Assembly: GCA_019235715.1 (NCBI GenBank)
Contig: JAFAKE010000010.1
Span: 1-34,739 of the forward strand
DNA from: Vulcanimicrobiota bacterium
GTDB taxonomy: Bacteria > Vulcanimicrobiota > Vulcanimicrobiia > Eremiobacterales > Eremiobacteraceae
DNA: 34,739 nt
Direction of reading: 5' to 3'
The notes under the pieces are model-generated. The model was not told where the DNA came from. It did no database searches and worked only from the letters and a program-made list of their open reading frames with translations. The stretch's first letter is position 1. Each line of letters opens with the position of its first letter. Below, in pieces: positions 26,064 to 30,829 of this stretch. Both the position numbers and the translations under genes were made by a program.

Positions 26064-27023
26064 GTGCGCGCGCTGGTCACCGGAGCCGACGGCTTCGTGG
26101 GTCAGTGGCTTTTACGCGAACTGCTCGCGCACGGCGACGAGGTCACCGGCGTCACGCGCGGCGACCACACCCGGCTGACCACGCTTCCCACCGAAGCCGC
26201 GACGCAGATCCGCTGGTTGAGCGCAGACATACTCGATCTTGATGCGCTCGTAAACGCGGTCAGCGAAGCGCGGCCCGACGCGATCTATCATCTCGCTGCG
26301 CAGGCCTCGGTGGCAGAGTCGCTGCGCGATCCGGCCGGCACCGTCGACACGAACGTGATGGGCACCGCGAACCTGCTTGAGGCGACTCGTGCCAAAGCGC
26401 CAGAGGCGCTCGTCGTCGCCGTTGGTTCAGCGGAGATATACGGCTCCGTCGAACCGAACGAGCTGCCGCTGAACGAGAGCGCGCCGCTGCATCCCAATAA
26501 CCCATACGCGGGCAGCAAGGCGGCGGCCGAGATGGTCGCTTTGCAGTACGCCCAAACCGGCTGGGCCCGCGTGCTGGCGACACGCTCGTTCAACCACACC
26601 GGCCCGGGGCAGAGCGTGACCTTCGCGGCCGCCGGATTCGCGAAACAGTGCGCGGATATCACGCGCGGCAAGCAGGCGCCGGTGCTGCAACACGGCAATC
26701 TTTCCGCACAACGCGACTTCCTCGACGTGCGCGACGTGGCATCCGCCTACCGTCGCCTGGGCGAGCGCGGCGAGTCCGGGTCGGTGTACAATGTCTGCAG
26801 CGGGCGTGCGGTCAGCATGCGCGAGATCGTCGAGGAGCTCATACACCTCGTCGGCCTGCCCGTGGAACTGCGCCAGGATCCGCAGCGGATGCGCCCGGTG
26901 GACACGCCGGTCATCGTGGGCGACCCGAGCCGCATCCGGCGCGATACCGGCTGGCAACCTCAGCTGCCGCTGCTACGGACGCTGCGTGACTTGTACGACT
27001 ACTTTCTAAAGGAAGATGGATAA
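26064..27023 (+). CDS. rmd: GDP-6-deoxy-4-keto-D-mannose reductase (GDP-D-rhamnose synthesis)
   Basis: 319 residues. The start is GTG at 26064. The Rossmann motif is VTGADGFVGQWLL, the catalytic pair is Tyr148-x3-Lys152 (YAGSK), and TRSFNHTGPGQ is typical of the Rmd branch of SDR enzymes. Rmd reduces the Gmd product to GDP-D-rhamnose; a GDP-fucose synthase or another 4-epimerase is less likely by motif. It follows gmd by two bases and overlaps the next gene by eight, so the three are one operon. The nucleotide sugar would feed a glycosyltransferase elsewhere. Confidence 0.87.
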   Translation: MRALVTGADGFVGQWLLRELLAHGDEVTGVTRGDHTRLTTLPTEAATQIRWLSADILDLDALVNAVSEARPDAIYHLAAQASVAESLRDPAGTVDTNVMGTANLLEATRAKAPEALVVAVGSAEIYGSVEPNELPLNESAPLHPNNPYAGSKAAAEMVALQYAQTGWARVLATRSFNHTGPGQSVTFAAAGFAKQCADITRGKQAPVLQHGNLSAQRDFLDVRDVASAYRRLGERGESGSVYNVCSGRAVSMREIVEELIHLVGLPVELRQDPQRMRPVDTPVIVGDPSRIRRDTGWQPQLPLLRTLRDLYDYFLKEDG

Positions 27024-27672
27024 ACCGAACCCCGCTCCTCCGCCACGCAGCCCGGCCCAGGGTCAGGACTGGCGAGCGGTCGTCTTCAAGAACCGCGGCC
27101 TCATCTTGCTGCCCGTCGCACTCGCGCTCGTCATCTTCGGGCAGCCGACCGAGTTCAGCGCCGCGATCGGCGTCGCCATCGCGCTGTGCGGCGAACTCAT
27201 CCGCATTTGGGCGGTCGGCTACTCCGGAGCGACGACGCGTGCCGACGTCGTCACCGCACCGAAGCTCGTGACGGCCGGCCCCTACGCGATGATGCGCAAC
27301 CCGCTCTATGTCGGCAACGCGATCATTGCCATCGGCTTTACCGTGGCGTTTTCCGGCGGCGTGCCGCTGATGCAGTCGTTCTGGCTGCTCGCGTTCGTGT
27401 TGGTCATCGTGATCGGCGTCTATACCACCATCGTGCCGCTCGAAGAAGAGTATCTCGCCCGAGCTTTTGGCATGCGCTTCACGCAGTACACGACGCTCGT
27501 TCCGCGCTTTATCCCCTGGAAAGGCCCGATCGACAAGAGCAAACAGGAGGGCAAGTGGAACCGCAGCGTGATCAACAGCGCGGAGAGCACGACGATCGGT
27601 CTGTTCGTGCTCATGGTCATCGTCTTGGTGCTCAAACTGACCGTCTTGCGAGGCTGGACGGTCATTCTCTAA
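27016..27672 (+). CDS. Isoprenylcysteine carboxyl methyltransferase-like membrane methyltransferase
   Basis: 218 residues, with four to five hydrophobic helices. The signature TAGPYAMMRNPLYVGN and a later EEEYL with FGMRFTQY place it in the ICMT/PEMT-type membrane methyltransferase superfamily, which uses S-adenosylmethionine on lipid or prenylated substrates at the membrane. Bacterial members are often of unknown substrate. AAAGGAAG precedes the ATG at 27016, inside the end of rmd. The last coding bases lie within the promoter proposed for the downstream leader RNA. Confidence 0.83.
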   Translation: MDKPNPAPPPRSPAQGQDWRAVVFKNRGLILLPVALALVIFGQPTEFSAAIGVAIALCGELIRIWAVGYSGATTRADVVTAPKLVTAGPYAMMRNPLYVGNAIIAIGFTVAFSGGVPLMQSFWLLAFVLVIVIGVYTTIVPLEEEYLARAFGMRFTQYTTLVPRFIPWKGPIDKSKQEGKWNRSVINSAESTTIGLFVLMVIVLVLKLTVLRGWTVIL

Positions 27673-27675
27673 AAT
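27646..27675 (+). promoter_or_regulatory. Sigma-70-type promoter for the leader RNA
   Basis: TTGCGA (27646-27651), an 18-base spacer and TAAAAT (27670-27675) match the -35 at four of six and the -10 at five of six positions. The start site would be near 27682, just before a hairpin. It lies across the 3' end of the preceding gene. Confidence 0.5.
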
Positions 27676-27681
27676 CCCGCA

Positions 27682-27924
27682 AAACGGGACAAGTGCTCTC
27701 GTGGTCCCGAACACTCGTAGGCTTGTCCTTCCGGCGGACCGGGTGCTATCTTCAGAAGGCGGTGCCGGCTCGATGCGCGAGTCCCTGAGGCCGGGTCTGC
27801 GGAGACTTCCGGAGAGCGCAGGTTCCCGGAATTTCCGGCCTCATGGGGAACCGGAGCAGTACGTAAGGATTGCGCCGCATCGAGCACACCGCACGTCGGC
27901 CGCCTAAATGGCGGCCCTTTTTTT
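27682..27924 (+). ncRNA. Putative structured leader RNA with pseudoknot upstream of hbd
   Basis: About 243 nt between the proposed promoter and an intrinsic terminator, with no convincing protein coding. Pairings seen: CGGGAC 27685-27690 with GTCCCG 27704-27709 as a 5' hairpin; TGAGGCCGG 27786-27794 with CCGGCCTCA 27835-27843 (9 bp, P1); CTGC 27797-27800 with GCAG 27818-27821 within P1; and GTTCCC 27822-27827 inside P1 with GGGAAC 27846-27851 after it, an H-type pseudoknot. CGGCC at 27836-27840 could instead pair with GGCCG at 27898-27902, the 5' strand of the terminator, a possible antiterminator switch. I do not recognise a known riboswitch, 6S, SRP, tmRNA or RNase P consensus. It could be a standalone small RNA. 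Confidence 0.5.
27898..27924 (+). terminator. Intrinsic terminator/attenuator just before hbd
   Basis: GGCCGCC (27898-27904), a TAAAT loop and GGCGGCC (27910-27916) form a perfect 7-bp stem, followed by C and seven T. It ends 17 bases before the hbd ATG, leaving no room for a promoter after it. Confidence 0.88.
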
Positions 27925-27941
27925 GTGTCGTAGTGAGACGG

Positions 27942-28790
27942 ATGACGATATTGGTCGTCGGCGCCGGGCAGATGGGATCCGGCATCGCGCAGGTCTGTGC
28001 CGGGGCCGGCAATCGCGTCCTGCTCAACGACGTCGATGAGGCCGCCTACGCACGCGGCCGCGCGGCGATCGAGAGGAATCTCGCACGCGCAGTCGAGCGC
28101 GGCAAAACGTCGCAAACAGATGCGGACGCGCTGCTCGGCCGCATCTCGTACCACCGCGATCTGACGGCGCAGACCGACGCCGCGATCGCGATCGAGGCGG
28201 CCACAGAAGACGAAGCGCTCAAGCTCGCCATCTTCAAGAAGCTCGACACCGCGCTCGTCCCCGCCGCGATTCTCGCGAGCAACACCTCTTCGATCTCGAT
28301 CACCAAACTCGGCGCAGCGACAAAACGCCCCGAGCGAGTCATCGGCATGCACTTCATGAATCCGGTCCCGGTCATGAAGCTCGTCGAGATCATCCGCGGA
28401 TTGGCGACATCTGAAGAGACGTACGGGTTCACCGAACAGCTCACGCGCGAACTTGGCAAAGTGCCCGTCGAAGTCAACGACTTCCCGGGTTTTGTGAGCA
28501 ACCGCGTGCTCATGCCGATGATCAACGAAGCGATCTACGCGCACATGGAAGGCGTCGGCAGCGCGGAGGCGATCGACACCGTCATGAAGCTCGGCATGAA
28601 CCATCCGATGGGACCGCTCGAGCTGGCGGACTTCATCGGCCTCGACACGTGCCTGGCGATCATGCAGGTGCTCTACGATGGGTTTGCCGATCCGAAGTAC
28701 CGGCCGTGTCCGCTGCTGAAGAAGATGGTCGCCGCGGGCCACCTGGGCAAGAAAAGCGGTCGCGGCTTCTACGACTACTCGGCAAAGTAG
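27942..28790 (+). CDS. hbd: 3-hydroxybutyryl-CoA (3-hydroxyacyl-CoA) dehydrogenase
   Basis: 282 residues, normal for the single-domain family. The NAD-binding GAGQMG is at 7-12, and NTSSISITKL, GMHFMNPVPVMKLVEI and VNDFPGFVSNR are the conserved segments around the catalytic His-Glu pair and the C-terminal dimer domain. It oxidises (S)-3-hydroxyacyl-CoA with NAD+ or works in reverse. The ATG at 27942 is chosen; GTG at 27933 adds three residues. It begins 17 bases after a strong terminator, so readthrough seems needed. It is followed by an acyl-CoA dehydrogenase after 15 bases. Confidence 0.92.
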   Translation: MTILVVGAGQMGSGIAQVCAGAGNRVLLNDVDEAAYARGRAAIERNLARAVERGKTSQTDADALLGRISYHRDLTAQTDAAIAIEAATEDEALKLAIFKKLDTALVPAAILASNTSSISITKLGAATKRPERVIGMHFMNPVPVMKLVEIIRGLATSEETYGFTEQLTRELGKVPVEVNDFPGFVSNRVLMPMINEAIYAHMEGVGSAEAIDTVMKLGMNHPMGPLELADFIGLDTCLAIMQVLYDGFADPKYRPCPLLKKMVAAGHLGKKSGRGFYDYSAK

Positions 28791-28805: not shown

Positions 28806-30044
28806 ATGAACTTCGAGCTGACTGAGGACCAAAGAGCCGTACGCGATATGGTCGCGGCATTTGCCGCGCGCCAGATCGCCCCGCATGCGGCGCAGTGGGA
28901 TCATGACGGCACGTTCCCGGTCAAGGTCTTCGCGCGGCTCGGCGAGCTCGGCATCATGGGCATGTCGGTCTCGGAGCGCTACGGGGGCGCCGCGCTCGAC
29001 GCGATCAGCATCGCGCTCGCGATCGAAGAGCTCAGCAAAGCCGACGCGGGGGTGGGCGTGACGGTCTCCGTGCACGCCGGCATCATCACGCGCATCATCG
29101 AGCAATTCGCTTCCGACGAACTCAAATCGGAATATCTGCCCAAGATGTGCGAGGGCACCTGGCTCGGTGCATTCTCATTGACAGAGCCCGAGGCTGGATC
29201 GGATGCCGGTGCGCTGCGCACCCGTGCGGAGCGGCGCGGCGACACGTACATCATCAACGGAACAAAGCAATGGGTGACCAACGGCGGCCACGCTCAGGTG
29301 TACGTCGTCTTCGCACGCACCGGCGGACCCGGACCGCGCGGCATTTCCGCCTTCTTGGTCGACCGCGACACGCCGGGCCTCACGATCGGCCGCGAAACCG
29401 AGAAGATGGGAATCCGCTCATCCGACACGGTCGATCTCATTCTGCGCGATGCGCACGTGCCGGCGTCGCGCCTGCTTGGCGCAGAGGGCGCCGGCTACAA
29501 GATCGCGCTCGCGAACCTCGGGGTCGGCCGCCTGGGAATCGCAGCGCAGGCCGTCGGCATTCTCGCTGCTTGCCTCGACACATCGGTGCGCTATGCGCTC
29601 GATCGCTATCAGTTCGGACGGCCGATCGGTGCGTTCCAGGCGGTGTCGTTCAAGATCGCCGACATGGCGATGGACCTCGATGCTGCCCGGTTGCTGTTGT
29701 ACCGCGCCGCGTGGCAAAAAGACAACGGCTCGACGAGCATCGATGCGTCCTCCAAAGCCAAGCTCTTCGCGTCGACCGCCGCGCGCAAACACGCCGCCGA
29801 ATGCGTGCAGATCCTTGGCGGTTACGGCTTCACGAAGGAGTTTCCGGCAGAGCGCTACTATCGCGACGCGAAGATCACCGAGATCTACGAAGGGACGTCC
29901 GAGGTGCAGCACATCGTCATCGCGCGCGAGCTGCTCGGCCGGCTTGACGAGCGCACCTCGATCGACCGCCCGGCCGGTCCGCAAGTGCGGCCCAGCGCGC
30001 CAAAACACGATGGTGTCGGCCAAGCCGAGCGCACGCCCAAATGA
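28806..30044 (+). CDS. Acyl-CoA dehydrogenase (FAD)
   Basis: 412 residues. It shows the ACAD signature FSLTEPEAGSDAGAL, WVTNGG, RYQFGRPIGAFQAV and the catalytic Glu362 in YEGTSEVQ, the short- or medium-chain position. It introduces the trans-2 double bond into acyl-CoA, passing electrons to electron-transfer flavoprotein. The C-terminal 30 residues beyond the usual end are Pro/Arg-rich. It lies 15 bases after hbd and overlaps the methyltransferase gene (ATGA), so the beta-oxidation pair is cotranscribed with the following genes. Chain length is not evident. Confidence 0.92.
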   Translation: MNFELTEDQRAVRDMVAAFAARQIAPHAAQWDHDGTFPVKVFARLGELGIMGMSVSERYGGAALDAISIALAIEELSKADAGVGVTVSVHAGIITRIIEQFASDELKSEYLPKMCEGTWLGAFSLTEPEAGSDAGALRTRAERRGDTYIINGTKQWVTNGGHAQVYVVFARTGGPGPRGISAFLVDRDTPGLTIGRETEKMGIRSSDTVDLILRDAHVPASRLLGAEGAGYKIALANLGVGRLGIAAQAVGILAACLDTSVRYALDRYQFGRPIGAFQAVSFKIADMAMDLDAARLLLYRAAWQKDNGSTSIDASSKAKLFASTAARKHAAECVQILGGYGFTKEFPAERYYRDAKITEIYEGTSEVQHIVIARELLGRLDERTSIDRPAGPQVRPSAPKHDGVGQAERTPK

Positions 30045-30829
30045 GCGAAGCGGCGCCGCGTCTGTTCGCAGATGCAGATGCGTATCAGCGCTTCATGGGG
30101 CGTTGGAGCAGCAGACTCGCGCAGAAGTTCTTGGATTTCGCCGGCCTCAAAGACGGCGAGCGTGTACTCGACGTCGGGGCGGGCACGGGCAGTCTGATCG
30201 CGGCGATTGCCGAGCGCGCGCCGCGCGCCGCCATCAGCGGCATCGATCCTTCGCCCGAATATGTCGCCTATGCCGCAGCGCGCGTGCCGCACGCGGCCGT
30301 GCAGGTCGGCGACGCGCAAGCGTTGCCGTTCGAGGACGCCTCATTCGATCGCACGCTCTGCCAATTGGTGATGAACTTCATCCCCGACGCGCGGCGCGCG
30401 GCCGCTGAAATGCGCCGCGTCACGCGGCCGGCCGGAACCGTCGCGGCCGCCAACTGGAATTTCGACGGCATGCGCATGCTCGGCGAGTTCTGGGATGCCG
30501 TCGGCCCATCGCCCTTGGTGAACAGGCACGGCGAGCGCGGTTCGGCGTTTACGCGAGAAGAGCTTATCGAGCTGTGGCGCGAATCGGGTCTGACCGGCGT
30601 CGAGGCGGCCGACATTTCGATCGTCACCGAATTTGCTTCGTTCGACGACTATTGGCTGCCGTTTCTGCTCGGGCAGGGTCCCGCGGGCGTGTTTGCCGTT
30701 GCGCTTGCTCCGAGCGAGCAGGCCGCGCTGCGCGAGCGTTTGCAAGCGCGGTTGCTCGGCGGGGGTCCGGATAGGCCCTTTTCGTTGGAGGCTCGCGCAT
30801 TCGCCGTGCGCGGCGCAGTGAGGAAATAG
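30041..30829 (+). CDS. Class I SAM-dependent methyltransferase
   Basis: 262 residues. Motif I is VLDVGAGTGSL, followed by the acidic GIDPSPE (ribose binding), GDAQALPFEDASFD and an AAAEMRRVTRPAGTV strand-loop, the standard Methyltransf_11-type arrangement. It methylates an unknown small molecule or lipid in the cytoplasm; ubiquinone/menaquinone (UbiE)-like reactions are one option. The ATG overlaps the acyl-CoA dehydrogenase stop by four bases and sucC begins three bases after the stop, which places an unrelated-looking enzyme tightly within a carbon-metabolism operon. Confidence 0.86.
   Translation: MSEAAPRLFADADAYQRFMGRWSSRLAQKFLDFAGLKDGERVLDVGAGTGSLIAAIAERAPRAAISGIDPSPEYVAYAAARVPHAAVQVGDAQALPFEDASFDRTLCQLVMNFIPDARRAAAEMRRVTRPAGTVAAANWNFDGMRMLGEFWDAVGPSPLVNRHGERGSAFTREELIELWRESGLTGVEAADISIVTEFASFDDYWLPFLLGQGPAGVFAVALAPSEQAALRERLQARLLGGGPDRPFSLEARAFAVRGAVRK

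Follow-up and report, generated by a model that had tools for sequence, protein, structure and literature searches.

Directly 5' of a fatty-acid-breakdown operon in a member of the Eremiobacterales lies a folded RNA of ~165 nt (27759-27924, + strand; ~166 nt here) that is real and previously uncatalogued. As read from its sequence, it consists of a three-way junction of P3, P4 and P5, with the UCUGCGGAGA hairpin unchanged in every copy, that is closed by the long stem P1 and followed by a strong intrinsic terminator. Comparison of sequences establishes how it is built, where it is predicted to begin and end, that it is conserved and that it is confined to one order. The most likely reading, to which we give just under an even chance, is a small RNA with a terminator of its own, past which readthrough feeds the downstream (thiolase)/hbd-acd-sucCD operon. 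The features on which the argument rests, in the coordinates of the window (the whole 34,739-nucleotide stretch of DNA analysed), are the following.

27016-27672, + strand: upstream gene, PEMT/ICMT-family methyltransferase (family assignment)
27675-27689, + strand: inverted repeat TCCCG-N5-CGGGA, 5' of the promoter; position kept in relatives (ATTCCGC...GGGAC; upstream sequences, 12 genomes)
27708-27722, + strand: conserved block CGAACACTCGTAGGC abutting the -35, consensus CGAACAnnCGTTGGC (upstream sequence comparison)
27723-27752, + strand: sigma-70-like promoter, -35 TTGTCC and extended -10 TGCTATCTT (27744-27752), conserved in ten genomes
27759-27924, + strand: the RNA, predicted 5' end at the P1 base and 3' end at the T-run (conservation, covariation, promoter-P1 spacing, terminator)
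27759-27776, + strand: P1 5' strand (27759-27764 and 27768-27776), pairing with 27877-27892 (strand-swap test)
27786-27794, + strand: P3 5' strand TGAGGCCGG, conserved and covarying; the 9-bp stem of the initial annotation
27796-27805, + strand: P4 hairpin TCT-GCGG-AGA, the same in 13/13 aligned copies
27807-27831, + strand: P5 hairpin TTCCGG-a-GAGC-GCAG-GTTC-CCGGAA, which includes GTTCCC (covariation, folds)
27835-27843, + strand: P3 3' strand CCGGCCTCA, conserved and covarying
27846-27851, + strand: GGGAAC, proposed crossing partner, non-conserved (comparison with relatives, strand-swap test)
27877-27892, + strand: P1 3' strand (27877-27885 and 27887-27892; strand-swap test)
27898-27924, + strand: intrinsic terminator GGCCGCC-TAAAT-GGCGGCC-C-T7 (terminator prediction; in 13/13 copies)
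27942-28790, + strand: hbd, 3-hydroxyacyl-CoA dehydrogenase, first downstream gene (Pfam 3HCDH_N/3HCDH; neighbourhoods)

The order was sampled by 14 genomes (G000-G013), of which G000 is that of the window. Thirteen of them, in nine genera, have the RNA at the corresponding locus, with a predicted length of about 149-174 nt; two copies are shortened (G006, G007) and one is divergent (G013). A DNA search over the order returned full-length matches in the two congeners only, whose copies are about 81-84% identical, and homologues beyond them came from synteny and covariance models. Sequence 5' of orthologous hbd genes yielded the RNA in three more genera. A covariance model built on six sequences (R1) and run against 117 genomes of the class added copies in G008, G009, G010 and G012, and inspection of the same intergenic position revealed the shortened and divergent ones. 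The G012 locus gives no match in G011, where the RNA may have been missed because the genome is incomplete (81%). With a core model (R2) searched over 149 genomes of the phylum, scores of at least 57.8 bits were confined to this order and all others stayed at or below 26.3 bits; there was no convincing match in the 135 other genomes of the phylum, nor any at 80 hbd loci from other phyla. Other families of the class gave weak model matches (L183-L190, 20-24 bits) that lay, where inspected, in apparent coding sequence and lacked the conserved core.

The two shortened copies (L191, L192) are located between methyltransferase and thiolase genes. They have lost the -10 and, compared to G008 of the same genus, ~53 nt of the P5/P3 3' region. 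The RNA remnant is 93.7% identical between G006 and G007, against about 87% for the flanking genes.

Folding energies compared to dinucleotide shuffles (z = -4.65 for 27740-27925 and z = -5.10 for 27768-27890) are so far below expectation that the region must be regarded as structured, though as nested helices: the minimum-energy fold contains P1, P3, P4 and P5 and no knot. In a model-fitted alignment, 96.9% of cells are paired and 8 pairs have changed on both sides, a result equalled by none of 500 shuffles and abolished when the partners are slid. Because a model-fitted alignment is biased towards the structure, an alignment-free test was added in which 5' and 3' strands were swapped between species and duplex energies compared over 20000 permutations. 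Matched strands gave -21.6 kcal/mol versus -11.0 for mismatched ones in P1 and -14.9 versus -11.8 in P3 (0 of 20000 permutations each), and -12.9 versus -9.4 in P5 (1 of 20000). P1, P3 and P5 covary strongly. As for P4, UCUGCGGAGA is unchanged in 13/13 aligned copies, and this lack of any variation demonstrates a constraint on sequence, pairing being not provable from P4 itself. Helices form easily at high GC, and one could attribute the whole to fortuitous folding of GC-rich intergenic sequence. However, z values near -5, conservation over nine genera and above all the covariation tests refute this explanation, to which we assign practically no weight.

Two further features of the fold were observed. 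P4 (CUGCG, 27797-27800) is complementary to the apical part of P5 (CGCAG, 27818-27821), a candidate loop-loop contact, and in several other genera the apical part of P5 reads GCCGC, facing GCGG. In G003, G005, G010 and G009 (L200, L201, L197, L196), an alternative hairpin GCUCGC...GCGAGC just 3' of P3 competes with outer P3.

The initial annotation had placed here an H-type pseudoknot with a riboswitch-like ligand pocket. The strings it quoted are present exactly (TGAGGCCGG at 27786-27794, CCGGCCTCA at 27835-27843, GTTCCC at 27822-27827, GGGAAC at 27846-27851, CTGC at 27797-27800 and GCAG at 27818-27821), and its 9-bp stem is the conserved, covarying helix P3. It was also right in placing a structured RNA at the operon head, 5' of the terminator. 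The crossing GTTCCC/GGGAAC helix, extendable to 7 bp (27821-27827 with 27846-27852), is confined to the single sequence. In the congeners it is reduced to six pairs, mostly G-U (G001), or three consecutive pairs (G002), and it is absent from the homologous copies compared in other genera. Its strands do not covary: matched duplexes reach -11.0 kcal/mol and mismatched ones -10.1, and 2540 of 20000 permutations attain the observed value. Since an H-type pseudoknot riboswitch requires two compensatorily conserved crossing helices, this candidate was rejected. Thus the folded RNA survives comparison (z near -5; covariation of P1, P3 and P5), but the knot does not, the helices being nested.

Given the 9-bp stem, a crossing helix of at least 6 bp arises in 14% of shuffles and one of at least 7 bp in 3%. 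The latter figure, the existence of the strings and the leader position are what a metabolite-binding riboswitch with this pseudoknot has in its favor. It would nevertheless have to break the conserved P5, because GTTCCC is part of the P5 3' strand; in this one sequence the exchange of P5 for the crossing helix is about neutral (-1.1 kcal/mol, without pseudoknot penalty). With a crossing helix conserved neither within the genus nor beyond it, and no conserved base-pairing switch with the terminator, this proposal is largely refuted by the conservation and covariation tests and we consider it very improbable. Nothing indicates a ligand.

The failure to match a known class, already stated in the initial annotation, was confirmed with Rfam 15: nothing in the window reached the gathering threshold, and in seven homologous loci the RNA position gave no match up to E = 1. 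Paired ends, compact form and size range recall 6S RNA and the bacterial small SRP RNA. The true genes for both lie elsewhere in the genome (RF00013 at C92 and RF00169 at C62, respectively), and the RNA matches neither model. A CsrA-bound or sequestering RNA was likewise rejected: CsrA is absent from six RNA-carrying genomes (G000-G002, G004, G005, G013) and is therefore not a general partner. The closer likeness is to Hfq-type small RNA genes, with which it shares an own promoter, a length of ~165 nt, a strong terminator with U5-U9, single copy, restriction to a lineage and the presence of Hfq, encoded in 14/14 genomes of the order. It differs from them in being highly structured, in displaying an invariant paired motif instead of an obvious single-stranded seed, and in always heading one operon.

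Both ends of the RNA carry the signals that a small RNA gene requires, judging by their conservation and a predicted start. The promoter, missed by a simple promoter scan, has an extended -10 (TGnTAnCnT-like) that ends 6-7 nt before the first P1 base in all ten genomes with a findable motif, and, in the nine genomes whose sequence reaches that far upstream, a normally spaced -35-like TTG. This constant spacing suggests that the predicted RNA begins exactly with P1. At the other end, the terminator follows directly 3' of P1 with a run of T5 to T9. In the ten genomes tested, its formation probability is 0.93-1.0, it is favored by 10-19 kcal/mol over folds without it, and neither a conserved alternative partner for its 5' arm nor a conserved antiterminator was found. 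Pairing of that arm with the GGCGG of the P1 5' strand or with the CGGCC of P3 (27836-27840) occurs in single sequences only; the latter, also suggested in the initial annotation, is due to the self-complementary GGCC. A terminator that is always favored and whose 5' arm has no conserved partner points to transcription ending there unconditionally, as it would in a gene for a small RNA, and argues against a riboswitch that works by base-pair switching.

Upstream of the promoter, the inverted repeat and the CGAACAnnCGTTGGC-like block are recognizable across most of the order. These elements (27675-27722) look like regulator sites; it is also possible that the inverted repeat is the end of the upstream unit. 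Downstream, in genus g5 (L192, L194), a further conserved hairpin, which reads GCAUCCGGCG...CGCCGGAUGU in G007, lies between terminator and thiolase, adjoining the start codon, and possibly affects translation.

In the reading we prefer, RNA polymerase would start at the first P1 base (about 27759), and the transcript would fold into the long P1 closing the P3/P4/P5 three-way junction. The unconditional terminator with U7 would then stop transcription and release a ~166-nt RNA with paired ends, which a partner, either a protein or a second RNA, probably contacts at the invariant UCU-GCGG-AGA hairpin. The operon would probably also be fed by readthrough, the T-run being only 17 nt from the hbd ATG. 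Transcription, release, a partner and action in trans are what we infer. Counted for this reading are the homologues at the same locus, with none convincing outside the order, the strong covariation of P1, P3 and P5, the 6-7 nt spacing that appears to fix the start, a terminator directly after P1 with no antiterminator, Hfq throughout the order, and the persistence of the operon in G006 and G007 in spite of the lost -10. Counted against it are the 10-mer, which is mostly paired, unlike a typical small RNA seed, and the invariable position of the RNA.

In 13/13 copies the RNA is located 5' of (thiolase)/hbd-acd-sucCD in the same orientation, which suits a role in cis. In six genera hbd leads the operon, in three thiolase does; the G012 operon has a thiolase and lacks hbd. 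As the entire neighborhood is syntenic, position alone is not decisive. The distance from T-run to ATG is 16-17 nt in the genus (17 nt here) and 38-94 nt elsewhere. A gap of 16-17 nt is too short to hold a separate operon promoter, and hbd there needs transcripts passing the terminator. Within the operon, a class I SAM-dependent methyltransferase gene (30041-30829) sits between acd and sucC and overlaps the acyl-CoA dehydrogenase stop codon; sucC directly follows acd in G012.

The main rival to the small RNA is a cis-acting leader attenuator, which we regard as a serious but still tentative possibility. Here, the RNA promoter would drive the operon and the terminator would end most transcripts; readthrough would change when the P4/P5 junction is recognized by a protein or by a factor for processive antitermination. 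The short gaps agree with this, as does the fact that the RNA remains at the operon 5' end whether hbd or thiolase comes first. The position in a 5' leader, with a terminator just before the first gene, is also that of known attenuators and riboswitches, from which the RNA differs in lacking a conserved antiterminator or switch and in being absent from Rfam. Against it, the terminator was favored in all ten genomes tested, and G006 and G007 retain the operon with a shortened RNA devoid of its promoter. It is for the unconditional terminator and the operon kept in these two genomes that we place a small RNA with readthrough slightly above a protein-dependent cis attenuator.

Like a transcription-attenuating riboswitch, the RNA lies 5' of functionally related genes; mutually exclusive terminator and antiterminator structures were not found, and with no conserved antiterminator a classical riboswitch is unlikely. 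A ligand could also bind the real three-way junction and act by a mechanism that does not show up as competition between base pairs. The invariant 10-nt element in the junction and the location in the leader of acyl-CoA and succinyl-CoA genes would fit, and in the minimum-energy folds of G003, G005, G009 and G010 the P3 3' strand pairs alternatively with the downstream GCGAGC segment, possibly reflecting bistability in these genomes. However, this alternative fold is missing from the genus of the window, the RNA is limited to one order and no expression platform was found, which leaves the proposal a slim chance. Less improbable, yet still unlikely, is a new regulatory RNA class in which the UCU-GCGG-AGA three-way junction would sense a metabolite or recruit a processive antitermination factor, thereby controlling the beta-oxidation/succinyl-CoA operon of this uncultivated order.

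A pseudoknot that is attractive in one sequence can thus vanish on comparison with relatives while the RNA gene itself is real. A literature search under the phylum name Eremiobacterota, a name that was itself a guess, found no small-RNA work. The RNA is new to Rfam, the pseudoknot is unsupported, and the mechanism lies between two ordinary possibilities, a small RNA and a cis attenuator. The analysis adds to this lineage an RNA family that is well defined and backed by covariation; its unchanging 10-mer and its place ahead of CoA-thioester genes provide specific testable leads.
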